From: Haloglomus litoreum
GTDB lineage: Archaea; Halobacteriota; Halobacteria; Halobacteriales; Haloarculaceae
Direction: 5' to 3'
NCBI RefSeq assembly: GCF_029338515.1
Contig: NZ_CP119988.1
Coordinates: 2,232,001-2,296,000, forward strand
DNA length: 64,000 nt
The notes under the pieces are model-generated. The model was not told the DNA's origin. It was given only the letters and a program-made list of their open reading frames with translations, and searched no databases. The translations under genes and the position numbers were made by a program. Below, piece by piece: positions 4,676 through 19,730 of this stretch. The number at the start of each line of letters is the position of its first letter. Position 1 is the first letter of the stretch.

Positions 4676-4702
4676 GTCCCCGATCCCGATACACTCCCTC
4701 CC

Positions 4703-5647
4703 TCACCGCTCGTCGAGGAGCGGGAACCGTCCGAGTCGAGCCGCCGCCATCCGGGCGATGCCCCGCCCGAGCGGCTTCCCTGTTACGGCGTGGCGATAGG
4801 CCTCGGCCTGGCCTGGTCCGTCGGCGGCCGGAACGAGGCGGACCGTCGTTCCCTCTGGTCCGACCGTCAGCAGGAGCCACGCCTGCGGGAACGAGCAGGT
4901 GGCCGGGGCCAGCAGTTCCGTCGTCGGGCCGTGTCGCGCCACCGCAGGGACGTGGTGGTGGCCGGTCACCGCCAGTGGCACGTCGTGGCTCGCCAGTAAC
5001 TCACGGACCGCAGGCCCGTCGCGCACCGGGAACCCGGACCACTTCCCGCCGGGGTTCTCCGGCAGCGGTGCGAGGTTGTGGTGAGCGAGCAGGACCGGCG
5101 TCTCGATATCGGGCAGCCGTGCTGCCAGCCACTCCCGCTGCCGGTCCCCGATACGCCCGCCCCAGGTGTCGCGGAGGTCACCGTCGGCACCCGCGCTGTT
5201 CACACAGAGGACGGTCACCGGGCCCACGCTGAACGCGCAGGGCAGCCCGTCCGGTGCGTAGCGCCGGCGGAACCCGGAGCGGCCGATGCCGTCGTGCTCG
5301 TCGAAGGCCTTCGGGAGGTCGTGATTGCCGGGGGTCGCAGCCCAGGGCGCCCCGAGGTCGGCGAGCAGCGGGTCGACGGCGTCGAACTCCGCGTGCCGTC
5401 CGTCGCACGTCAGGTCGCCGGGCAGGAGGACGGCGTCCGCGGCCGCCGCTGCATCATCGAGCGCGGTAGCGAACCGCCGGCGGCTCCGGTGGTGGAGCTT
5501 CCAGCTTCCGACCCCCGAGACGGCGAGATGCGGGTCCGCCACGACGGCGAGCCGGACCCGTGACGGCACCCTCGGACGGCGGAGATGGGCGAGCACGGGG
5601 CCCCGGCTCTCGACGGCTCGGTCATCGCTCCGGCTCTCCGGCGGCAT
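4703..5647 (-). CDS. calcineurin-like metallophosphoesterase
   Basis: A 314-residue protein with the metal-site motifs in order: ADPHLA, PGDLTCDG, TPGNHDLP, LLAHHNL and VTGHHHVP. These are the dimetal ligands of the calcineurin-like phosphoesterase fold. Its ATG at 5647 overlaps the TGA of the ABC ATPase, making it the last gene of the transporter operon. The frame runs further upstream, but only as a shadow of the ATPase gene. Substrate is not visible; the position suggests it acts on a phosphoester brought in by the transporter, which is inference. No signal peptide is seen, so it should be cytoplasmic. Confidence 0.88.
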   Translation of the reverse strand: MPPESRSDDRAVESRGPVLAHLRRPRVPSRVRLAVVADPHLAVSGVGSWKLHHRSRRRFATALDDAAAAADAVLLPGDLTCDGRHAEFDAVDPLLADLGAPWAATPGNHDLPKAFDEHDGIGRSGFRRRYAPDGLPCAFSVGPVTVLCVNSAGADGDLRDTWGGRIGDRQREWLAARLPDIETPVLLAHHNLAPLPENPGGKWSGFPVRDGPAVRELLASHDVPLAVTGHHHVPAVARHGPTTELLAPATCSFPQAWLLLTVGPEGTTVRLVPAADGPGQAEAYRHAVTGKPLGRGIARMAAARLGRFPLLDER

Positions 5648-6666
5648 CACGCGTCGAGCAGGTGGACCCGGTCCTCGTTCACGGAGAGCGAGACGTCGTC
5701 GCCCGGGGGGTCCGCAGTCGGATCGAAGCGGAGCGTCACCTCGGTCCCGTCCGGGAGCCTCGCTGCGGCTCGGACGTGGTCCCCGAGGTAGAACCGGTCC
5801 TCGACCGTCGCCGTGACCGGCCCCCCGAGTTCGAACGCCTCCGGGCGGGCTACGACGGTCACGTCCCCGTCGGGGGCGCTCGCCGGGGCATCGACCGTCG
5901 CGTGCCCCAGGTCCAGCTTCCCGTCCGAGACGGTCGCGGGCAGCCGATTGGAGGTGCCGATGAAGTCCGCGACGAAGGCGTTGGCCGGGGACTCGTACAC
6001 CTCGTCGGGTGGTCCGACCTGCTCGATGCGGCCGTCGTTCATCACCGCGATGCGGTCGCACATCACCATCGCCTCGGCCTGGTCGTGGGTGACGTACAGC
6101 GCGGTCACGTCGATCTCGTCGAGCAGCGATCCGATCTCCTCCTGGAGCCGGGTCTTGAGCTTCGCGTCCAGCCCCGTCATCGGCTCGTCCAGCAGGAGGA
6201 CGCGCGGCTCGATGGCCAGCGCCCGGGCGAGGCCGACGCGCTGTTGCTGGCCGCCGGACAGCGTCGTCGGGTCCCGGTCGCCCATGTCACCGATGCCCAG
6301 CAGGTCGAGCAGTTCGGCCGCGCGGTCGGCCCGCTCGTCGGCCGGCATCGACCGCATCCGGAGGCCGAACTCCACGTTCTCCCGGACGGTCATGTTGTCG
6401 AACAGCGCGTAGGACTGGAAGACCAGCCCCACGTCACGCTGTTCGGGCGGGGTGTCGGTCACCGTCTCCCCGCCGAACAGCACGTCGCCCTCGCTCGGGG
6501 TCTCGAACCCCGCGACCGTCCGGAGCGTCGTGGTCTTCCCGCAGCCGGAGGGGCCGACCAGGCCGACCGTCTCCCCCGGTTCGACCGTCAACGACACGTC
6601 GTCGACGGCGAGCGTCTCCCCGAACCGCTTCGTGACCGCCGTGAGTTCGACTCGTTCTGCCATCAT
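5647..6666 (-). CDS. ABC transporter ATP-binding protein (PotA/polyamine-phosphonate-iron type)
   Basis: A 339-residue ATPase. Walker A GPSGCGKT is at about residues 38-45, followed by the signature LSGGQQQRVGLARAL, Walker B LLLDEPMTGLD and the switch histidine in YVTHDQAEA. The C-terminal third is a TOBE-like domain ending NEDRVHLLDA, as in PotA-type importers. The first of two tandem ATGs (6666) overlaps the permease TGA. It energises the two permeases encoded just upstream. Confidence 0.92.
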   Translation of the reverse strand: MMAERVELTAVTKRFGETLAVDDVSLTVEPGETVGLVGPSGCGKTTTLRTVAGFETPSEGDVLFGGETVTDTPPEQRDVGLVFQSYALFDNMTVRENVEFGLRMRSMPADERADRAAELLDLLGIGDMGDRDPTTLSGGQQQRVGLARALAIEPRVLLLDEPMTGLDAKLKTRLQEEIGSLLDEIDVTALYVTHDQAEAMVMCDRIAVMNDGRIEQVGPPDEVYESPANAFVADFIGTSNRLPATVSDGKLDLGHATVDAPASAPDGDVTVVARPEAFELGGPVTATVEDRFYLGDHVRAAARLPDGTEVTLRFDPTADPPGDDVSLSVNEDRVHLLDA

Positions 6667-7631
6667 CTGACACCTCCGACAGAGAAGCCGCGTTCGCCCG
6701 TCGCCCGCAGTAGCGCCGTCACGGCGACGACGATGCAGAAGTAGATGGAGATGGCCGCCGAGGCACGCAGGAACGGGTTGTTCGAGATGTTCTCGAAGAG
6801 GAACAGCGAGAACGGCTTCGGGCCGCGGGAGTAGACGATGTACGAGAAGTTGAACTCCGCGGCGGCGAGCGTCCAGCAGATGATCGACCCCGCGACGATG
6901 CCCCGCTTCGCGTTCGGGACGATGACCGTGAGGAAGGTCCGGGGCCAGGACGCGCCCAACGAGCGGGCGCTCTCCTCCAGTTGCCGGAGGTCCATCGACT
7001 CGAAGGATGACTGCACCGCCAGCACCATGTACGGCGCCTTCAGCAGCGAGTAGCCGATGATGAGAGCGACCGCACTCGGGAGGTTCGGGTACGTCCGCAG
7101 GAAGGCGATACCCAGGATGATGCCGGGCACGACCGGGAGCACCGCGAACGTGTTGAGCCAGCTGCGGCCGAAGAAGTCGTAGCGGGTGACCGCGTACGCG
7201 ATGGGGACCCCCACGAGCAGGTTGATGAACACCCCACCCAGCGCCAGCAGCATACTGAACCCGATGGTCTCGGGGATGGGGATGGTCAGGCCGACGAACG
7301 GGAGCTCCGTGGCGCCGCCGAGGCCCCGCTGTGCGCCGAGCCCGCTTCCGCCGAGCCCGAGCGCGGCCAGCCAGTTCTCGAAGGTGACGAAGCCGCTGGG
7401 GAACAGGCCGGTCCACTCGGCCGCGAACGAGGCGAGGAACGTCACCAGCACCGGCACGATGAGGAAGGCGACCGTGACGGCGATGAGCAGGGTGACGAGC
7501 GGCCGACTCAGCCGCGAGACGAGCCGGGAGGCCGCCCCGGGATCGCGGGCAGGAACCTGCCCGCTCCGGACAGGCGCGGCCCCGCCGTCTGCACGTGTCT
7601 CACCCCTGCTGGTGGCGTTCTCGTCGCTCAT
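6663..7631 (-). CDS. ABC transporter permease, second subunit (PotC-like)
   Basis: A 322-residue inner-membrane protein with about six hydrophobic segments. The cytoplasmic EAA loop is ESARSLGASWPRTFLTVIVP, which docks on the ATPase. The first 35 residues are polar and charged. Start and stop both lie in 4-base ATGA overlaps with its neighbours, so it belongs to a tightly coupled binding-protein-dependent importer operon. The membrane topology and the pairing with a second non-identical permease match the polyamine/iron/phosphonate class; the substrate cannot be read from the sequence. Confidence 0.9.
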   Translation of the reverse strand: MSDENATSRGETRADGGAAPVRSGQVPARDPGAASRLVSRLSRPLVTLLIAVTVAFLIVPVLVTFLASFAAEWTGLFPSGFVTFENWLAALGLGGSGLGAQRGLGGATELPFVGLTIPIPETIGFSMLLALGGVFINLLVGVPIAYAVTRYDFFGRSWLNTFAVLPVVPGIILGIAFLRTYPNLPSAVALIIGYSLLKAPYMVLAVQSSFESMDLRQLEESARSLGASWPRTFLTVIVPNAKRGIVAGSIICWTLAAAEFNFSYIVYSRGPKPFSLFLFENISNNPFLRASAAISIYFCIVVAVTALLRATGERGFSVGGVR

Positions 7632-8599
7632 GCCGCCACCTCCGCGCTGGTGAAGCGCAGCCCTGCGAACGTGAACAGCACGGTGAAGACGAAGAACAGC
7701 GTCGCGAGCGCCGAGGCCATCGGCAGGTCGAAGCCGACGCTGATCTCCTGGTTGAACCGGAACGTCACGACCGAGAGCGCCTTCAGGACGAGGACGGTCC
7801 CGAAGATGGCGAGAGCGGTCCGGAAGGTGAGGATGAGCGCACCCACGATACCGGGCCGGATCTGGGGCAGCGTCACGTACCGGAACGTCTGCCAGGGGGT
7901 CGCGCCCAGCGACCGGGCGGCCTCCTCGGCGTCGGTGTTGACTTCGGCGTAGGTCCCGCGCAGGATGAACGTCGCGCGCGGGATCATCGAGTAGCAGTAG
8001 CCCAGGAACAGGCCCAGGATGGCCAGCGTCGTCCCGGAGGGCTGGCCGGTCAGCTTCACAGCGTTGGCCTCCGCGCCGGTGAGGAAGGTGACGAAGTTCG
8101 TCAGCAGCCCCGTCTTCCCGAACAGGACGATCATCATGAACGCCGCGACGATGCCGGGCAGGCTGATGGGGAAGGAGATGAGCGTCACCAGCAGCCCCTC
8201 GCGCGGGAGGTCGTACTTCTCCAGGCCGTGGGCGATGGCGATGCCGACGGCCACGCTGGCGAGCGTGGTGACGGTGCCGAACCACAGCGAGTTCCAGATC
8301 ACCGACCCGTAGACCGGGTTCGCGTCGATGGCGGTCCCGGGGAGGAACGCCGCGATGGAGGTGAAGATCTCCGCGTACGCGTCGAGGGTGAACCCCTCGA
8401 TGGCGAAGCTGGAGGTGGAGGTGCTCATCCGGATCATCTCCGCGAGCGGGACGAACGCACCGAACGCCGCGAGTGCCAGGAACGGCACCGACAGCAGTCG
8501 GATGCGGAGCCGCTCGCGGTCGGCCTCCGTCTCGGCGCCGACTGCGTCGGCCAGTCGGGCCCGGAGCCGGGCGAACGGTGACCGTTCGAGCGTGGACAT
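7628..8599 (-). CDS. ABC transporter permease, first subunit (PotB-like)
   Basis: A 323-residue permease. A charged N-terminus of about 35 residues precedes a first membrane span at LLSVPFLALAAFGAFVPLAE. The EAA loop is EEAARSLGATPWQTFRYVTLP. The ATG at 8599 overlaps the stop of the binding-protein gene. A much longer frame exists upstream but is only the shadow of that gene. It forms the heterodimeric channel with the second permease. Confidence 0.9.
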   Translation of the reverse strand: MSTLERSPFARLRARLADAVGAETEADRERLRIRLLSVPFLALAAFGAFVPLAEMIRMSTSTSSFAIEGFTLDAYAEIFTSIAAFLPGTAIDANPVYGSVIWNSLWFGTVTTLASVAVGIAIAHGLEKYDLPREGLLVTLISFPISLPGIVAAFMMIVLFGKTGLLTNFVTFLTGAEANAVKLTGQPSGTTLAILGLFLGYCYSMIPRATFILRGTYAEVNTDAEEAARSLGATPWQTFRYVTLPQIRPGIVGALILTFRTALAIFGTVLVLKALSVVTFRFNQEISVGFDLPMASALATLFFVFTVLFTFAGLRFTSAEVAA

Positions 8600-9750
8600 C
8601 AGTACCCCGTGAGCCCGACACCCTCGCCGATATCCTCGATGATACCCTCCTGGTTCTCGACGAGTTGCTGGTAGTCGACCTGGAACTGGGTCTCCTCGTA
8701 TCGGGACTGGGCCGGGAACTCCTCGGGCATCTCCAGTTCGGGCGCCCGGATGGGACGGACGTAGGCGTCGAGGAACTTCTTCTGTCCCTCCAGCGAGAGG
8801 ACGTAGTCCATGAACAGCTTGCAGGCCTCGGGGTTCGGCGCACCCTTCAGCATCCCGTAGCCGTACGGCTGGTTGAACGCCCCCTTCTCGCCGTTCGGGC
8901 CGGTGAGAAGCTTCACACCGACCTTGTCCTCGGAGATGGCGTCCGCGTTGTACTTCAGGTCCAGCCCCGTGTAGTCGTACTCGACGAACGTCGTCACCTC
9001 GCCCTTCGTGAACTTCTGCTCGACGTTGCCCGCGAAGACCGCGCCCTTGTCCTTCATCTCGGTGTAGTAGTCGATGACGGGCTGGACGTCGTCGAGCGAC
9101 CCGCCGTAGGCGTTGTTGATCGAGAGGGCGCCCGCCAGCCCGACGGCGGCGTTGGGCGGCTGGAACTGGGTGTTGGCCGCGATCTCCTCGCGCTTCAGGT
9201 CCTCCCAGGTCTCGGGCGGCTCCAGGCCCTTCTCCTCGTAGAGGTCCTTCCGGTAGGTGACCGTCGTGGTCATCCGTCGGGTCGCGGTCATATGGCCGTT
9301 GTCCGTCTTGAGCTTGTCCGGCACCTTCTCCCAGCCCTTCGGCTTGTACGCCTGGGTGAGCCCGTCCTGCATCGCGAGGATGCCGAACGTGTAGCCGCCG
9401 TTGTAGGCGGAGTGGGTGGGGTCCTGGGCGTTCGACCGGAGGTTCGACAGGGCCTCCCCGGAGGAGCGCTGGTCGTCGTTCAGCGCCACGCCGTACTGGT
9501 TCTGGAACGCCTCCATCAGCGCACCCCAGTTCGACCACCCGGTCTGGACGGCGTAGACGAACAGCTTGTCCGGGAAGTTCGACGCGTTGACGGTCTTCTG
9601 GAAGTCGCCGTGGCCGACCTCGTACTGTTCCCCACTCCCGCTGCCGCCATCGCCGCCACCCCCGCCGTCACCGCCGTCACCGGTACACCCGGCGAGTGCG
9701 GTGGTGGCTGCAGTACCGGTACCGATCAGGAACCGTCGTCTGGAAGACAT
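8599..9750 (-). CDS. Tat-exported lipoprotein, ABC transporter substrate-binding protein
   Basis: A 383-residue extracellular binding protein. The N-terminus has a twin-arginine motif (SSRRRFLIG), a short hydrophobic core and a lipobox LAGC around residue 22, then a Gly/Asp-rich linker. This indicates export folded through Tat and lipid anchoring outside the membrane. The fold resembles family-1 extracellular solute-binding proteins (YRKDLYEEKGLEPPETWEDL, NQPYGYGMLKGAPNPE, LFMDYVLSLEGQKKFLD). As first gene of the operon it follows the only clear promoter. Ligand unknown; iron, polyamine, thiamine or organophosphate are all possible. Confidence 0.92.
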   Translation of the reverse strand: MSSRRRFLIGTGTAATTALAGCTGDGGDGGGGGDGGSGSGEQYEVGHGDFQKTVNASNFPDKLFVYAVQTGWSNWGALMEAFQNQYGVALNDDQRSSGEALSNLRSNAQDPTHSAYNGGYTFGILAMQDGLTQAYKPKGWEKVPDKLKTDNGHMTATRRMTTTVTYRKDLYEEKGLEPPETWEDLKREEIAANTQFQPPNAAVGLAGALSINNAYGGSLDDVQPVIDYYTEMKDKGAVFAGNVEQKFTKGEVTTFVEYDYTGLDLKYNADAISEDKVGVKLLTGPNGEKGAFNQPYGYGMLKGAPNPEACKLFMDYVLSLEGQKKFLDAYVRPIRAPELEMPEEFPAQSRYEETQFQVDYQQLVENQEGIIEDIGEGVGLTGY

Positions 9751-10070
9751 CGAGTGAACGCTGCTGTTTCTCGAACATCAACGTATATATGAGGGTTATG
9801 TGTATGTTTCGACGGATAATATCGGTACAGCAGGAAAACATCGTTCGGTACCGTTCGGCGTCATTCTGTACCAGTCGCGGCCGTTTGGCATCGATGGGGA
9901 GCGGTACATACGCCACCGGAGCGGGACACAGACGGTCGGGCCGTCGCGAGTCCGGTGGCCCGTGAAGCCCGGTCACCGCCGAGCGGGAAGGGAGGCACGA
10001 GTTCGGTCGGGTCGCCGTGGAGGACTCGACCAGGGAGCCGTGTACTCTCCCGGGATGTACCTCCCGGGGC
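9751..10070. other. intergenic region
   Basis: This 320-base gap holds the ABC operon promoter at its left end and the 3' end of the next minus-strand gene at its right. A second AT-rich patch (GGATAATATCGG, about 9813-9824) has no start codon at a promoter-like distance. Two CTCCCGGG copies near 10050-10075 lie just past the stop of the 10071 gene. No gene is supported here. Confidence 0.6.
9783..9791 (-). promoter_or_regulatory. TATA-like promoter of the ABC transporter operon
   Basis: The stretch GTATATATG is centred about 37 bases before the ATG of the binding-protein gene, read on the minus strand. Confidence 0.5.
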
Positions 10071-10703
10071 TCACGACCCGGGCAGCAGGTCACCGAGCGC
10101 CGCGCCGATGACCATCGGGACGAGCGCGACCGACGCCTGACAGAACGAGAGCCACGGTCGCGACCAGTCGAGCCGGCCCCACGCGGTCATCGCGACGAGC
10201 GCGGTCAGGAGCGAGATGACGAGGATACCAGCCAGTCGCCGCGGGATGAATCCCAGCAGCGGTCGGTAGACGCGCACGTCCTGGAAGTCGGCGACGTAGA
10301 GGATGCCGATGGTGAGGGCCACGGACGCCCCGAGCGTCCCGACCAGCGCGAGGGGGTTGGCGGCGACGAACGTGCCGACCTCCAGCGTGCCCCCCTCGAC
10401 GAACATCGGGATGCCGAACAGGAGCGCCCCCAGCAGCGCTTCGGCGGCGTCCGCGCGGTCGAACCCGTAGACCACGTTGCCGAACGGCCCCGCCTGCATC
10501 TCCCCGAGCACGAGCTTCGCACGCTCGACGGCCTCGCGCTCCTCGGGGTCGTCGACGGTGCCAGCCAGTGCCTCCAGTTCGTCGAGTACGTCGCTGGCGG
10601 TCGGCGGTGGGTCCCCGAGGGGCCGCGGCGGGAGCTCCTCGCCGGCCGTCGCCGCATCGGCGGACCCGCCGGTCGGTGGGTCAGCGTCGGGGTCCTCGGC
10701 CAT
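10071..10703 (-). CDS. conserved haloarchaeal integral membrane protein (DUF2391-like)
   Basis: A 210-residue protein with an acidic cytoplasmic N-terminus of about 90 residues (ELEALAGTVDDPEEREAVERA) and then about four hydrophobic segments from ALLGALLFGIPMFVEGG to ALVPMVIGAALGDLLPG. The arrangement resembles haloarchaeal DUF2391-type membrane proteins; the family name is from memory and unverified. It starts at the ATG at 10703, one base after the TAG of the 3-hydroxyacyl-CoA dehydrogenase, so the two form an operon. No function can be assigned. Confidence 0.75.
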   Translation of the reverse strand: MAEDPDADPPTGGSADAATAGEELPPRPLGDPPPTASDVLDELEALAGTVDDPEEREAVERAKLVLGEMQAGPFGNVVYGFDRADAAEALLGALLFGIPMFVEGGTLEVGTFVAANPLALVGTLGASVALTIGILYVADFQDVRVYRPLLGFIPRRLAGILVISLLTALVAMTAWGRLDWSRPWLSFCQASVALVPMVIGAALGDLLPGS

Positions 10704-10704
10704 C

Positions 10705-11592
10705 CTACGCCTCGTCGACGGGTCGGACGGCCTCGCCGTCCTCCCAGACGTAGAACCCGCGGCCCGACTTCTGGCCGAGGTGACCCGCTCGGACCTTCCG
10801 GCGGAGGATCTCGGGGGGCCGGAACCGCTCGCCCAGTTCCTCGCGGAGGTGTTCGAGGATGTCCAGCCGCACGTCCAGCCCGACCACGTCCGAGAGCTCC
10901 AGCGGCCCCATGGGGTGCCGGTAGCCCAGTTCCATCGCCGCGTCGATGTCGGCCGTCGCGGCGGCACCGGTCTCCAGCATCCGCATCGCCTCGGCGCCCA
11001 GCGTCACGCCGAGCCGCGAGGAGGCGAACCCAGGTGCGTCTCGGACGACGACGGCCTCCTTCTCCAGGGACTCGACGAACCGGACGGCGTGCTCGCGGGC
11101 GGTGTCGCTCGTCTGTTCGGCGGTCACCACCTCGACCAGCCCCATCACGTAGGCCGGGTTGAAGAAGTGGAGTCCGCAGAACCGCGACGGGTCGTCGAGC
11201 GAGGCGGCGAGTTCCGTCACCGGGAGCGAGGAGGTGTTCGACGTGATGAGCGCGTCCTCGCCGACGGCGGCCACGGCCTCGTCGAGGACGCTGGTCTTGA
11301 GGTCGAGGTCCTCGGGCACGGCCTCGATGACGATGCTCGCGTCGGCGCAGTCGTCCAGGTCCGTGGTCGTGCGCACCCGCTCGCGCGCGGCGGCGGCCGT
11401 GTCGGCGTCGAGCTTGTCCCGCTCGACGGCCCCCGAGATGGTCCCGTCGACGGCCTCGGCCGCCGCCACCAGTACGTCCTCGTCCACGTCCCGCATCGTC
11501 ACGTCGTGGCCGACGACCGCCGCCGCATGGGCGATTCCACGACCCATCGTGCCCGCACCGAGGATGGCGACGTGCTCCGTGTTGCCTGTCAT
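10705..11592 (-). CDS. 3-hydroxyacyl-CoA dehydrogenase
   Basis: A 295-residue NAD-dependent enzyme. The Rossmann motif GAGTMGRGIA is near residues 10-19, and TSNTSSLPVTEL with LHFFNPAYVM carries the catalytic Ser/His region. The C-terminal helical domain has YRHPMGPLELSDVVGLD. It oxidises L-3-hydroxyacyl-CoA in beta-oxidation or related butanoate routes. A GTG at 11598 is in frame, but ATG 11592 has a GGAGG at good spacing (11600-11604) and is preferred. The nearby BAAT-like acyl-CoA hydrolase, divergently transcribed, supports a fatty-acyl-CoA context. Confidence 0.92.
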   Translation of the reverse strand: MTGNTEHVAILGAGTMGRGIAHAAAVVGHDVTMRDVDEDVLVAAAEAVDGTISGAVERDKLDADTAAAARERVRTTTDLDDCADASIVIEAVPEDLDLKTSVLDEAVAAVGEDALITSNTSSLPVTELAASLDDPSRFCGLHFFNPAYVMGLVEVVTAEQTSDTAREHAVRFVESLEKEAVVVRDAPGFASSRLGVTLGAEAMRMLETGAAATADIDAAMELGYRHPMGPLELSDVVGLDVRLDILEHLREELGERFRPPEILRRKVRAGHLGQKSGRGFYVWEDGEAVRPVDEA

Positions 11593-11710
11593 GCTCACCT
11601 CCGCGAGCGGCGCCCGGTTAAGCGTTCGGCGGGGCCCGTTGGCACTGCCCCCGGGCCCAGTGCCGCAAGATTCTTGTGCCGCGGTTTCGACTCCTTGAGC
11701 AAGTATAATT

Positions 11711-13097: not shown

Positions 13098-15551
13098 TCA
13101 GTCCGAATCGGCGTTGGCGATGGCCCCGAGCACGTCGTCCAGTATCATCGTCCCCGTCAGGGTGTCCAGCGGGTCGTTGTTGTTCCCGCAGTGCTCGCTC
13201 ATCACGCACATCGGGCAGCCGCGCCGGCGGCCACAGTCGCAGTCGGCGATGTGCTCGCGGGTGCGCTCGGCCAGCGTCGCGAACCCCTCGTAGATGGCCT
13301 TCGAGAAGCCGATGCCGCCGTCGATGCCGTCGTGGACGAACCAGACCGGGCCCGGGACCGTCTCGTGCTGGTGGGCCAGCGTCGACAGGCCGCCGATGTC
13401 GGCGTTGTCGATGAGCAGCTCCAGCGGCGCGAGCCCGATGACGCCGTGCTCGGCGGCGTGCAGGCCGCCGCCGTACGTGTACCGCTCCTCCTCGGTCGGC
13501 ACGGCAGCGTCCCGTTCGGACCGCTCGCTCGGCTGGAGCAGGGGCTCGTCGAGTCGAGCCAGCGTCCGGTGCATGTGGTCGGCCGGGAGCGACACCCACA
13601 GCAGCTCCGTTCGGAGGTTCAGCGGCGGCGTGCCTGTCGGGAGGGGCCCCCGGACGACCTCCCCGGTGAACACGTCCCGGACGAGGTAGCTATCGTAGCT
13701 GATGCGGACGGTCCCCTCGCCGAAGTAGAGGTCGTACTCCCCAGCCAGCGGCGTGTGGTCACGCACCTCGAGGTCCACGATGCGCTTGGTCGAGGTGGTC
13801 TGCGTGTACTCTCGGGTGTCGGTCTCCCGGACGGTGATGGTCGGGTGGTGACCGTCCTCGTCGACGTCGACCACCTCGTACTCCTGGCCGGCGTGGAGGA
13901 ACAGCGCGCCCTCGTGGTAGTCCCGGTACGCGCGTTCCTCGGCGACGGGGTCGTGGTCGATGTCGCCGTCCTCGCAGACGACGGTGAACTCGGTCCCGCC
14001 GGTGCCGTACAGCGAGATGCGACCCTGCGGCCGCGGGGCGCCCGTGTAGGTGACGCCGCCGGCGTCGAGCGAGGCGGTCGCCTCCAGGAGGCCGGCATCC
14101 TGCCACATCCCGACCATCTCGCGGAACCGCTCCTCGTCGCCGAGGAACGCGGCGTCCTCGGCCCGGAGCGGTCGCTCGGACGCCGCCGCCAGCAGGTGGT
14201 CCGCGTAGACACGGTCGTTGTCGACGGAGACGACGGCGTCCTCGACCTCGTCGCTCGCGAAGAGGTAGCCGGGGTTGTCGAAGATGTAGGCGTCCATCGC
14301 GTCCATCCCGCCGACCAGGACCGACAGCGCGTCGCTCGTTCCGCGGCCGGCGCGGCCGACCTGCTGCCAGAAGGACTGCTTCGTCCCCGGGTAGCCGGCC
14401 GTGACCGTCGCGTCGACGGAGCCGATGTCGATGCCGAGTTCGAGCGCGTTCGTCGTCGGCACGGCGTCGACGACCCCCTCCTTGAGCTTCGTCTCTACCG
14501 CCCGCCGCTCCCGCTTGCCCAGGCCCGCGTGGTACGGGTCCGTCGTGACGTGGCGGCCCGACCGATTGTCGCGTGCGGCCCGGCCGATCTGCTTGGCCGC
14601 GATCTCGGTCCCCTGTCTCGCGCTGCAGAACTGGAGCGTCTGGACACCGTTCGCGGCGAGGTGGGCCGTGACCGAGGCGGCCTCGGCGCCGGTCGAGCGC
14701 CGCGCCTGCTCGAAGTCGGCCAGCGGGTCCGCCGCGTCGTCGTCCAGCTGTGCCTCGTCCAGCGGCGGCTCCCAGAGCACGATGTCGCGGGCGCCCCGGG
14801 GCGAGCCGTCCTCCTCGACCACGCGGAACTCGGCGCCCGTGAGCTGGCTGGCGTGGTGCGAGGGGTTGCCGATGGTGGCCGTCGTCATCACGAACTGCGG
14901 GTCGGCGTCGTAGTGGTCGAGGAGCCGCCGGAGCCGCCGGAGGATGAACGCGACGTGTGTCCCCGTGACGCCGCTGTACTCGTGGCCCTCGTCGATGACG
15001 ACCAGTTCGAGGTTGCTGTAGAAGCGATGCCAGCCCCGGTCCCGGTTGTGCCGCGGGAGGTAGACGTTCAGTCCCGCCGGGTTCGTGAGGACGACGTTCG
15101 CCTCCTCGCGGATGCGCCGTTTCCGGTCGCTGTCGGTGTCGCCGTCGTAGACGCCGATGTGGGCGTCGAGTCCCCATTCGCCGCGTAGCAGGTCGTTGAG
15201 CGCCGCCTCCTGGTCCCGGGCCAGCGCCTTCATCGGGAAGAGACACAGCGCCGTCGCATCGGGGTCGTCGAGGTGGTTGCGCGCCATCTGGAGCGCGTAG
15301 ATCCACGTCTTCCCCGACGAGGTGCTGGTGGTGGCGACGACGTTCTCGCCGTCGGCCAGGTGCGCCAGTGCCTCCGCCTGGTGGGTGTACAGGTCGGATC
15401 CGAGACGGCCCGCCAGCTCCGGGTGCAGGACCTCCGACGGCGGGACGAACTCCCCGTCGCGCTCGTCGAGGCGCTCGCTGTGTCGGACCTGCTCCCGGTA
15501 GTCGGGGTAGCTCGCTTCGAGGGCGTCCTGCGAGAGGATGTCGTCGTGCAT
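13098..15551 (-). CDS. superfamily 2 helicase with DUF1998 zinc domain (MrfA/YprA/Hrq1-like)
   Basis: An 817-residue DEAD/DEAH-type helicase: Q-motif-like LYTHQAEAL, Walker A TSTSSGKT (75-82), box II DEGHEYSG (about 187-194), TTATIGNP as motif III, and motif VI QQVGRAGRG. The C-terminus has the four-Cys cluster of DUF1998 (CDCGRRRGCPMCVMSEHCG). This is the architecture of Bacillus MrfA/YprA and eukaryotic Hrq1, which unwind damaged DNA. It lies 2 bases after an RNase-H-fold exonuclease gene, the arrangement of the bacterial mitomycin-repair pair MrfA-MrfB. The longer upstream frame overlaps that gene and is a shadow. Confidence 0.9.
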   Translation of the reverse strand: MHDDILSQDALEASYPDYREQVRHSERLDERDGEFVPPSEVLHPELAGRLGSDLYTHQAEALAHLADGENVVATTSTSSGKTWIYALQMARNHLDDPDATALCLFPMKALARDQEAALNDLLRGEWGLDAHIGVYDGDTDSDRKRRIREEANVVLTNPAGLNVYLPRHNRDRGWHRFYSNLELVVIDEGHEYSGVTGTHVAFILRRLRRLLDHYDADPQFVMTTATIGNPSHHASQLTGAEFRVVEEDGSPRGARDIVLWEPPLDEAQLDDDAADPLADFEQARRSTGAEAASVTAHLAANGVQTLQFCSARQGTEIAAKQIGRAARDNRSGRHVTTDPYHAGLGKRERRAVETKLKEGVVDAVPTTNALELGIDIGSVDATVTAGYPGTKQSFWQQVGRAGRGTSDALSVLVGGMDAMDAYIFDNPGYLFASDEVEDAVVSVDNDRVYADHLLAAASERPLRAEDAAFLGDEERFREMVGMWQDAGLLEATASLDAGGVTYTGAPRPQGRISLYGTGGTEFTVVCEDGDIDHDPVAEERAYRDYHEGALFLHAGQEYEVVDVDEDGHHPTITVRETDTREYTQTTSTKRIVDLEVRDHTPLAGEYDLYFGEGTVRISYDSYLVRDVFTGEVVRGPLPTGTPPLNLRTELLWVSLPADHMHRTLARLDEPLLQPSERSERDAAVPTEEERYTYGGGLHAAEHGVIGLAPLELLIDNADIGGLSTLAHQHETVPGPVWFVHDGIDGGIGFSKAIYEGFATLAERTREHIADCDCGRRRGCPMCVMSEHCGNNNDPLDTLTGTMILDDVLGAIANADSD

Positions 15552-15553
15552 GG

Positions 15554-17221
15554 TCAGGTGAAATCCGAGAGCGCGCCCTGGGTGCCGCCGTCCCCGGTAT
15601 CCGAGGTGGTGCCCGGCTCGCGTCGGGCGGCGTCGGCGAGCGCGTCGTAGATGGTCGCGAGCGCGCGGACATCGTCCTCGCAGTACCGCTCCAGGCGGTC
15701 CCAGTCGGGCTGGTCGACGCGCCGGGAGTCCTCGGCCGCCAGGTACGCCCGGCGGTAGGCGGTGTAGACCCGGGCCACGACGCCGCCGTCGATGCCCGTC
15801 GTCTCCGGGTGCCAGCCCAGCGCCTCGGCCACGGCCTCGAGCTTGTTGCTCCGCCCCGGGAGCGCGGCGTTGCCGCCGTTCCGGTCCCGGGCCCACCAGA
15901 GCAGATCGAACTGGTAGGTGTCCTCCCAGGCGTCGAGATAGCCGGGGCAGTGGTCGCAGATCTGCGTCCGCAGGACCGGGAAGTCGAAGTTGTACCCGTT
16001 CCACGCCACGAGCGGCCGGCCGCCCGCGTTGGCCTCCAGCCAGTCGAGGAACGACTCGAGATGTCCGGTGTCGCCGGGCTCGCGCTCGCGGAACGCCATG
16101 TAGTGGCCGTCGGCGCCGCCGCCGTCGAGGACGCCGACGAGCCACGCACACGAGGGTTCGAGGCCGTCGGTCTCGATGTCGACGAACACCGGCTGGCCGG
16201 ACGGGAGCGAGTCGTCACCCGTCGCGACGACGGTGTCGTGGGCCCGGGCCCTCGCGGCGGCCCGGATGCTCGTTGCTGTCGAGCGACCCAGCCCGGAGAG
16301 GTCGGCCAGTTCGTGTGGCGGCGCCTCCGCGATGTCGATGGGCGTCAGGTAGCCCGCCGCGCGGAGCGTCTCGGCCCGCTTCTCGCCGACGCCGGTGGTT
16401 CCCCGGATACCGAACGTCTCGGGGTCGACGGTCTCGACGCCGACGGCCCCGTTGCGGTAGACCTCGACGAGTGTGGCTGTCCGCACGGCCTCGTCGCCGG
16501 CACCGGCGCCGAGCGAGGCCTCCGACCGGCCGATCCCGACCAGCGAGCAGGCTCCGCCGTCAACGGTCGTCGTCGTCCGGTAGCCCGCCCGGAGCGCCGT
16601 CGAGCAGTGTGTCGTGGGGCCGGTCAGCCAGCCCTGCGGGAGCCGCGCGCGGTACGCCTCGAGGCCGTCGAACGACGTCGAGCGCCGGTACGGGTCGACG
16701 GTCAGGGAGACCGCGGTGGTGAGACAGACCCGGTGTGACGCTGTGTCGAGCGCGTCGCCGGTAGCCGCGCCGACGCCGGCATCGGTGAGGTCGTCGCCGC
16801 GACGCCCTCGTACGTCGCCGGCGCTGAGTCCGTCCGCACCATCGGGGATCGTCGCGACGAGGGTGTCGCCGGCAGCCGTGACGGACTCCGGGCGGTGCGA
16901 GCGCGACGGCGTGAGGACGGGAGCCTCGGTGTCCGGCGGGATTCCGGCGTCGACGATGCCGGCCCGGGGCTGGACCGCGACGATGGCGTCCGGTCCGACC
17001 TCGTCGAGCATCGCGGCGACGGTGTCACGGTGATACGCGGACACGAGGTCGCCCGGGAGAGCGAGGAGTCGGGCCGGTCGCCCGTTCGCCGGCGGGAGCG
17101 TCGGGGTCGGGTTGGCCGTGGGCGGCTCCCCGCCGTCCGTGACCGGGTGGTCGCCGGGCCGACCGCTCTCCGGGTTCCGACGGTCGCCTCGGTCCCGGGA
17201 ACCCCCGCTCGCGGGTGTCAT
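15554..17221 (-). CDS. DEDD-type exonuclease, RNase H-like (MrfB/YprB-like) with N-terminal extension
   Basis: A 555-residue protein. The C-terminal ~220 residues are an RNase-H-fold exonuclease: FVDIETDG (Asp and Glu ligands), WNGYNFDFPVL and YCEDDVRALATIY give a DEDD set. Before it, ELADLSGLGRSTATSIR and TTGVGEKRAETLRAAGY form helix-hairpin-helix elements for non-specific DNA binding. The first ~250 residues (starting at ATG 17221) are haloarchaea-like and unassigned. The helicase start is 2 bases beyond its stop, so the two are one transcription unit. Family knowledge: MrfB processes DNA opened by MrfA during crosslink repair. Confidence 0.87.
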   Translation of the reverse strand: MTPASGGSRDRGDRRNPESGRPGDHPVTDGGEPPTANPTPTLPPANGRPARLLALPGDLVSAYHRDTVAAMLDEVGPDAIVAVQPRAGIVDAGIPPDTEAPVLTPSRSHRPESVTAAGDTLVATIPDGADGLSAGDVRGRRGDDLTDAGVGAATGDALDTASHRVCLTTAVSLTVDPYRRSTSFDGLEAYRARLPQGWLTGPTTHCSTALRAGYRTTTTVDGGACSLVGIGRSEASLGAGAGDEAVRTATLVEVYRNGAVGVETVDPETFGIRGTTGVGEKRAETLRAAGYLTPIDIAEAPPHELADLSGLGRSTATSIRAAARARAHDTVVATGDDSLPSGQPVFVDIETDGLEPSCAWLVGVLDGGGADGHYMAFREREPGDTGHLESFLDWLEANAGGRPLVAWNGYNFDFPVLRTQICDHCPGYLDAWEDTYQFDLLWWARDRNGGNAALPGRSNKLEAVAEALGWHPETTGIDGGVVARVYTAYRRAYLAAEDSRRVDQPDWDRLERYCEDDVRALATIYDALADAARREPGTTSDTGDGGTQGALSDFT

Positions 17222-18554: not shown

Positions 18555-19730
18555 ATGAAACTCGCTGTCGTCGGGTTCGGCAACGCTGGCGGCAAGGTCC
18601 TGGACGAACTGCTCGCCTTCGAGGACGATACGGGGCGGGCGATGGTGAGCGCGGCACTCGCGATCAACTCGGCGAAGGTCGACCTGGCGCGACTCGAACG
18701 GGTCCCGGACAGCTACCGGGTGCTCGTCGGGCAGGCGGACGGGCGGGTCAAGGGCCACGGCGTCGGGAGCGACCCCGACCTGGGTGCCAGCATCACCGAG
18801 GCCGATATGCACGAGATCGACCGCGCACTCGACCAGGTCCCCCTCTACGAGATCGATGCCTTCCTCGTCATCGCCGGCCTCGGCGGCGGCACCGGGAGCG
18901 GCGGCGCCCCGAAACTGACGAAACACCTCCGGGAGATCTACGAGGAGCCCGTCTACGGGCTCGGCATCCTCCCCAGCGAGGACGAGGGCGGCCGTGCGGC
19001 GCTGAACGCCGCCCGGTCGCTCCGGTCGTTCACCGAGGCGGCCTCGAACCTCATCCTGTTCGACAACGCCGCGTGGCGTGGGGGCTCGGACTCCATCGAG
19101 TCGGGGTACGACCGGACGAACCGCGAGATGGTCACCCGGCTCGCAACACTCCTCTCCGCGGGCGAGGTCGACGGGTCGACCCTCTCGGAGAACGCGATGG
19201 ACGCCAGTGACATCCGCCGGACCCTCGCGACCGGTGGCGTGAGCTCCATCGCCTACGCGGAGGCCCGACTCGAGGCCGAGACACGGCGGCAGCAGGGCCT
19301 ACTGGGGAGCCTCCGCTCGAACCAGGCCGGCAACGGCGCCGACGGCGCGACCAAGGTCAGCGGGCTCATCCGGCAGGCAGTCCAGTCCAGGCTGACCTGC
19401 TCGGCCGACGTGAGCTCCGTGGAGCGTTCGCTCATCGTCCTCTCCGGGCCACCCGGCGAGTTCTCCCGGAAGGGGCTGGAGAGCGGCCGCCGCTGGCTCG
19501 AGGAGGAGACCGGCAGCGTGGAGGTCCTCGCCGGCGACGACCCTCGCCGGAACGCCGACCGGCTGTCGGTGGCCATCCTCCTCTCGAACCCCACGCGGGT
19601 CCCGCGACTGGAGCAGATACAGCAACAGGCCGTCGCCGCACAGGACCGCATCGAGGAGCAGAGCCGCGACCGTGATCAGGCGATCCGGACGCTCATCACC
19701 GACGACGGGGACCGACTGGACCCGCTCTGA
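18555..19730 (+). CDS. cetZ: CetZ tubulin/FtsZ-superfamily cytoskeletal protein
   Basis: A 391-residue GTPase of the archaeal CetZ group. VGFGNAGGKV opens the fold, GLGGGTGSGG (about 108-117) is the tubulin signature that binds GTP phosphates, and TRLATLLSAGEV with ATGGVSSIAYAEA lies in the second domain. The length fits CetZ (about 360-400) rather than FtsZ. The family forms filaments that set cell shape and motility-related rod development in haloarchaea. The C-terminal ~40 residues are polar and probably disordered. The gene is alone, with its own promoter and divergent from the NUDIX gene. Confidence 0.95.
   Translation: MKLAVVGFGNAGGKVLDELLAFEDDTGRAMVSAALAINSAKVDLARLERVPDSYRVLVGQADGRVKGHGVGSDPDLGASITEADMHEIDRALDQVPLYEIDAFLVIAGLGGGTGSGGAPKLTKHLREIYEEPVYGLGILPSEDEGGRAALNAARSLRSFTEAASNLILFDNAAWRGGSDSIESGYDRTNREMVTRLATLLSAGEVDGSTLSENAMDASDIRRTLATGGVSSIAYAEARLEAETRRQQGLLGSLRSNQAGNGADGATKVSGLIRQAVQSRLTCSADVSSVERSLIVLSGPPGEFSRKGLESGRRWLEEETGSVEVLAGDDPRRNADRLSVAILLSNPTRVPRLEQIQQQAVAAQDRIEEQSRDRDQAIRTLITDDGDRLDPL

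Follow-up and report, generated by a model that had tools for sequence, protein, structure and literature searches.

Among the closest described counterparts of the locus considered here is the MrfA–MrfB (YprA–YprB) pair of Bacillus subtilis, for which the literature suggests a helicase that opens DNA at nicks or lesions, with an exonuclease removing the strand (PMC11194089, PMC12458937). MrfB is presented as a DEDDh exonuclease, with His258 as the histidine and a C-terminal TPR region (PMC11194089). Relatives of YprA also run the defence systems DISARM, Dpd, Druantia, and ARMADA; the account that covers them assigns helicases associated with MrfB to a branch devoted to repair, and it already puts certain YprA helicases together with MrfB homologues in broad terms (PMC12458937). 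For haloarchaea, a PCNA-binding (PIP) consensus, QxxLxxFx, is given for Haloferax volcanii, whose PIP-bearing repair proteins include NreA, the loss of which leads to mitomycin sensitivity (PMC7776575). Argonaute is reported from ~9.6% of haloarchaeal species (63/656), a helicase gene being noted near some of the Argonaute operons (PMC11442185). An exonuclease of the kind reported below was not described in the titles and abstracts searched, in a literature coverage that leaves out most subscription journals.

Here, we analyzed a gene pair in a 64,000-nucleotide stretch of the Haloglomus litoreum genome (the window), which the initial annotation had read as an archaeal MrfA–MrfB-like operon. 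The helicase and the pairing stand, while the exonuclease, a DEDDy protein with no TPR, does not appear to be MrfB.

An adjacent exonuclease–helicase gene pair

Both reading frames are open and the two genes are adjacent on the minus strand, with the exonuclease first. The exonuclease stop codon occupies 15556–15554 and the helicase ATG begins at 15551, which confirms the 2-base spacing reported initially. The exonuclease start was chosen from three in-frame ATGs, the one at 17221 giving the length nearest to that of the relatives. The features of the locus, in window coordinates, are as follows:

13098..15551, minus strand: MrfA/YprA-family DEXH helicase (P0004), 817 aa, assigned from Pfam, a PDB match, and a tree
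13203..13454, minus strand: MrfA Zn-binding domain (PF09369) with four Cys, helicase residues 700–783, from Pfam
15552..15553, minus strand: the 2 bases that separate the exonuclease stop codon from the helicase ATG
15554..17221, minus strand: exonuclease gene (P0003), 555 aa, with a disordered start, a phosphoesterase-like domain, a helix-hairpin-helix (HhH), a DEDDy domain, and a C-terminal PIP motif
15560..15580, minus strand: putative PIP (PCNA-binding) motif QGALSDF at the exonuclease C-terminus, residues 548–554, from conservation in 78 sequences
15638..16189, minus strand: RNase_H_2 3'–5' exonuclease domain, residues 345–528 (93.3 bits, cut-off 22)
16250..16393, minus strand: helix-hairpin-helix HHH_5, residues 277–324 (40.5 bits, cut-off 27)
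16406..17086, minus strand: predicted calcineurin-like phosphoesterase fold lacking the conserved metal-ligand set, residues 46–272, from AF2, Foldseek, and VIA

The helicase carries DEAD, Helicase_C, and MrfA Zn-binding domains, the last of these (58.3 bits, cut-off 24.2) matching the C-terminal four-Cys cluster already seen in the sequence, and it aligns along its length with Bacillus YprA (PDB 6znp; residues 43–656 and 707–787, E 1.2e-97). By these sequence matches it is a full-length MrfA/YprA relative, as first proposed, and it is the sole MZB match in its genome; the nearest NCBIfam model, TIGR03817, has a cut-off of 874.1 bits, and the helicase scores 529.6. In an unrooted tree of 54 helicases, three groups emerge: the paired haloarchaeal sequences (26), the unpaired haloarchaeal ones (18), and those of methanogens (10), which are located beside MrfB. 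Each group requires a single change and is supported by at least 100/99, and the 26 paired haloarchaeal helicases form a single clade (support 100/100).

Conservation of the pairing was evaluated in two genome sets. Among 39 related genomes, 13 (the window's own included) hold a total of 15 exonuclease copies, each immediately preceding the helicase. When named genomes were scanned, 112 exonuclease relatives came to light, and in the best 80 of these 112 a helicase always follows the exonuclease on the same strand (80/80), within ~150 bases in 79 loci and at ~0.8 kb in the remaining one (L140); the helicase match is split in L103, L104, and L107. The two genes are thus conserved as neighbors, as the initial annotation had anticipated.

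The window's own pair is flanked by a thioesterase-like gene on one side and by NUDIX and CetZ genes on the other, and no defence genes were recognized among the nine proteins scanned around it. These flanking genes are not collinear at the corresponding place in three genomes of the same genus. The CetZ tubulin-like gene (18555–19730 of the window) is ~50% identical to its nearest congener match.

Domain architecture of the exonuclease

Residues D348, E350, D413, Y513, and D517 are invariant both in the 15 copies from related genomes and in a 78-sequence alignment, from which three of the 80 loci were omitted (L102, start unclear; L113, cut; L129, misread frame). Since the invariant Tyr accompanies D348, E350, D413, and D517, the exonuclease is of the DEDDy type, and the DEDD nuclease with helix-hairpin-helix motifs recognized at the outset is borne out by these residues and by both Pfam matches. 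Structurally, the exonuclease domain is closest to the proofreading domains of B-family polymerases (VIA, Z 16.3, rmsd 2.7, 167 aligned), which are likewise DEDDy (PMC11194089). A likeness of the N-terminal domain to PolB was set aside: Foldseek joined ~400 archaeal PolB columns to the whole model at an rmsd of 22, and VIA limited the PolB likeness to the exonuclease domain (residues 342–534, same Z of 16.3).

Ahead of the HhH, the exonuclease has ~250 extra residues, first noted as being of unknown fold. An extra domain is indeed present, and was found in all 77 relatives aligned with the window's exonuclease. Residues 1–270 have no Pfam match, but the fold did not stay unknown once the structure prediction proposed as a check was available: AF2 gave a confident model (mean pLDDT 87.5 for the whole exonuclease and 88.2 for the N-domain alone), which resembles calcineurin-like phosphoesterases. 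The best Foldseek PDB matches were Mre11/SbcD, TT1561, and LpxH (best E 7e-3), with nearly all rows being phosphoesterase folds, and all 50 rows listed by VIA were calcineurin-like phosphoesterases spanning the whole domain, the best being Rv0805 with a moderate Z of 9.2 (rmsd 4.1, 179 aligned). The metal ligands of these phosphoesterases lie in the motifs D, GD, GN, H, and GHxH, and no conserved set of this kind occurs across the 78 sequences. In hhalign, the N-domain profile matched the shallow phosphoesterase profile of the cousin family introduced below with a probability of only 0.1; because this sequence-profile comparison failed, the fold assignment draws on the predicted structure together with the cousins' architecture. 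From its model, the N-domain is best described as a probable dead phosphoesterase, its active site having been lost.

At the other end of the protein, Q548 and L551 are invariant in the 78 exonuclease sequences, and the pattern Q-x-x-L-x-x-[F/W] stands at the C-terminus, or at most 2 residues from it, in all 80 named relatives (79 by pattern, plus L129 after frame correction). In the 15 copies from related genomes the last motif position is F or Y. The linker ahead of the motif is variable and of low model confidence (disordered). Across 370 called proteins of at least 80 aa, PIP-like tails were carried by 13/13 exonucleases and by 2/357 other proteins, this background being drawn with a simple gene caller from 33 stretches in which the L064 and L067 exonucleases were not called. 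The tail agrees with the QxxLxxFx consensus of H. volcanii (PMC7776575), which suggests that it may bind the clamp. Given this fit and its presence in 80/80 relatives, the added targeting function that had been suggested for the N-terminal extension is likelier to reside in the tail, and the C-terminal PIP motif is the likeliest targeting element of the exonuclease. PIP-like ends were also seen in two proteins near unpaired haloarchaeal MrfA helicases (L089, gene 421–1731; L081, gene 7475–8392).

Distribution, gene neighborhood, and possible roles

Of the 81 genomes belonging to the window's order, 30 gave full-length matches (E < 1e-100) to the exonuclease family profile, as against none of 311 other genomes of the phylum. 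Genomes G002 and G027 each hold two pairs, and three more (G230, G249, and G292) hold two as counted by the exonuclease alone. In plasmid records, 44 of 72,556 have an exonuclease match; 30 of these are among the matches listed, all haloarchaeal, and plasmid PHS3 of Halobacterium salinarum R1 is a carrier, with the pair present there as OE_RS12870/12865. No exonuclease match was found in phage records. Within the genomes sampled, the pair is thus patchy, restricted to haloarchaea, and common on plasmids. In G002, identity to the window's pair is 64%/83% for the copy on a 140-kb contig and 38%/49% for the chromosomal copy. As the two pairs of this genome differ and lie on separate replicons, pairs seem to move between replicons.

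Neighbor clustering in 79 loci, with L127, L165, and L166 left outside as their exonuclease was not called, identified no third conserved gene beside the pair. Thymidylate synthase occurs near the pair in 11 of these loci and dihydrofolate reductase in 11; the loci concerned (L153, L154, L160, L162–L164, L167, L168, L170, L172, and L173) belong mostly to Natrialbaceae. A ~280-aa protein is encoded just upstream of the exonuclease in L119, L123, L130, L131, and L133; in L133 it lacks any Pfam match, and the beginning of that copy gives the impression, though nothing firmer, of resembling Cas4-like nucleases. In four loci (L144, at 4692–11620, L145, L149, and L150), Argonaute, exonuclease, and MrfA-type helicase form an apparent operon, represented by a Halobellus inordinatus and a Natrinema hispanicum type. 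In L144 and L150, the Argonaute and exonuclease genes are separated by 9 bases.

How the exonuclease relates to MrfB bears directly on the reading of the locus as an ordinary MrfA–MrfB operon, in which the exonuclease would be an MrfB that has diverged and gained a domain, and the pair would repair mitomycin-type adducts independently of UvrABC. The pairing is identical, archaeal exonucleases of both kinds combine HhH and RNase_H_2, and a profile comparison between the haloarchaeal exonuclease and methanogen MrfB reaches a probability of 99.2% (score 153). However, the metallophosphoesterase-HhH-DEDDy proteins, an archaeal cousin family, match more closely (99.8%, score 214), the Tyr invariant in 78 haloarchaeal sequences is set against a His invariant in 17 methanogen MrfBs (none of which has a PIP tail), and Pfam detects no TPR, only ~27 residues following the exonuclease domain and ending in the PIP motif. 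In PDB searches, P0003 gave no match to MrfB (8un9) at E ≤ 1, and of the 157 matches obtained with the 78-sequence profile the best 60 do not include MrfB, whereas a methanogen exonuclease (L206) matches 8un9 at E 4e-25. Paired haloarchaeal and methanogen helicases likewise fall in separate clades, and 47 exonuclease regions placed in an unrooted tree form three distinct groups, the haloarchaeal one being nearer the phosphoesterase family by branch length (the TM0106 member L225 was left out, no start being found by motif cut). An ordinary MrfA–MrfB operon is unlikely. By sequence comparison, the haloarchaeal exonuclease does not appear to be MrfB and is nearer to the metallophosphoesterase-HhH-DEDDy family, a member of which appears to have taken, beside the MrfA helicase of haloarchaea, the place that MrfB occupies in methanogens and Bacillus; because the three-group exonuclease tree is unrooted, this displacement is argued from distance and architecture. 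A different origin for the N-domain, from a RecB-like nuclease of the TM0106 (TIGR03491) family that has since decayed instead of from a phosphoesterase, was suggested by a TIGR03491 match to the HhH and exonuclease regions, which are preceded by a domain of comparable length. It was dropped once the fold searches returned phosphoesterases. It is highly improbable, as the match (28.8 bits) lies below the cut-off of 97.45, and L225, the one family member above that cut-off, scores only 13.7 bits with the haloarchaeal profile.

Patchiness and plasmid carriage raise the question of defence, i.e., of a mobile module in which the PCNA tether would direct helicase and exonuclease to replicating foreign DNA, so that they degrade invading plasmid or virus DNA either alone or, in some haloarchaea, as the processing arm of an Argonaute operon. 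Carriage on 44 plasmid records would fit such a role, as would the YprA relatives of DISARM, Dpd, Druantia, and ARMADA, a restriction-modification protein adjoining one copy (L108), and an Argonaute gene no more than three genes away at 7 of 79 loci, immediately preceding the exonuclease in the same orientation in four (the apparent operons above) and downstream on the opposite strand in three (L095, L130, and L131). PADLOC and Pfam were applied to the 124 genes occupying positions −1 and +2 (2 of 126 having been dropped as helicase pieces), and pAgo was the commonest PADLOC model (5 genes). Against this, 72 of the 79 loci have no Argonaute nearby, no PADLOC model is specific to the pair, the same adjacent genes include thymidylate synthase (6/124) and photolyase (3/124), no third gene is conserved, phage records hold no copy, and MrfB-associated helicases are assigned to the repair branch (PMC12458937). 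We regard defence, and clamp-guided degradation of foreign DNA in particular, as a minority reading of low probability, while noting that the patchy, plasmid-borne distribution and the Argonaute neighbors are as compatible with a role in defence or plasmid biology as with housekeeping repair.

With moderate confidence, we instead favor a two-gene, clamp-tethered excision module for damaged DNA, composed of an MrfA-type helicase and a non-MrfB exonuclease. By analogy with MrfA, the helicase would unwind DNA at a lesion or nick; the DEDDy exonuclease, judging from its domain and catalytic residues, would digest the exposed strand 3'–5' while the HhH holds it on the DNA, and the PIP motif may tether it to the sliding clamp PCNA. 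Such a tether would couple excision to clamp-dependent resynthesis. The N-domain, modeled as a phosphoesterase fold minus its metal site, would probably act as a scaffold or as a surface contacting the helicase. Compared to the MrfAB scheme, the new parts would be the clamp tether and the dead phosphoesterase as scaffold. UvrA is present in the window's genome (1357 bits), so the module could have a backup or parallel role to UvrABC.

Taken together, these results indicate that an MrfA helicase can stand beside an exonuclease other than MrfB, and they point to a specific connection, open to experiment, between the archaeal sliding clamp and an MrfA-type pathway. Binding by the clamp tag, if it occurs, would suggest a route by which excision is handed over to resynthesis. 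The plasmid copies and Argonaute neighbors, in turn, make the boundary between repair and defence within the YprA helicase family testable in haloarchaea.

Comparison with known systems

The haloarchaeal pair shares with B. subtilis MrfA–MrfB an MrfA-type helicase with a four-Cys zinc domain and a neighboring RNase_H_2 exonuclease. Unlike MrfB, the haloarchaeal exonuclease is DEDDy rather than DEDDh and lacks a TPR, and it adds a phosphoesterase-like N-domain, a strong HhH, and a C-terminal PIP motif. Gene order presumably also differs from that of Bacillus, the exonuclease gene coming first in the haloarchaeal pair.

In methanogen MrfA–MrfB pairs (such as L206, L209, and L222), the exonuclease also adjoins MrfA upstream and combines HhH with RNase_H_2. 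In contrast to the haloarchaeal partner, it is a true MrfB, of 286–414 aa with the starts used, with the motif III His and no PIP motif. The genomes with true-MrfB pairs appear to be those of methanogens of the same phylum.

Closest by profile is the archaeal metallophosphoesterase-HhH-DEDDy family (L223 and L256–L260), which has the same domain order and is also DEDDy. These cousins differ in having intact phosphoesterase motifs, with ligands invariant in 6/6 members, and in lacking a PIP motif at the end that bears the exonuclease. The Metallophos and RNase_H_2 domains of L223 and L224 are confirmed by Pfam, and no MrfA-type helicase was found near either of these two genes. This rare family (L223, at 6323–7765, L256–L260, L226, and L250) would, as predicted from sequence, unite two nuclease-type activities in one chain; the L250 gene appears split over two frames.

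DISARM, Dpd, Druantia, and ARMADA (PMC12458937) have a YprA-family helicase in common with the haloarchaeal pair, which differs in having no conserved third gene. Finally, the QxxLxxFx motif places the exonuclease alongside haloarchaeal NreA, Hef, and Fen1, enzymes otherwise unrelated to it that carry the same motif (PMC7776575).
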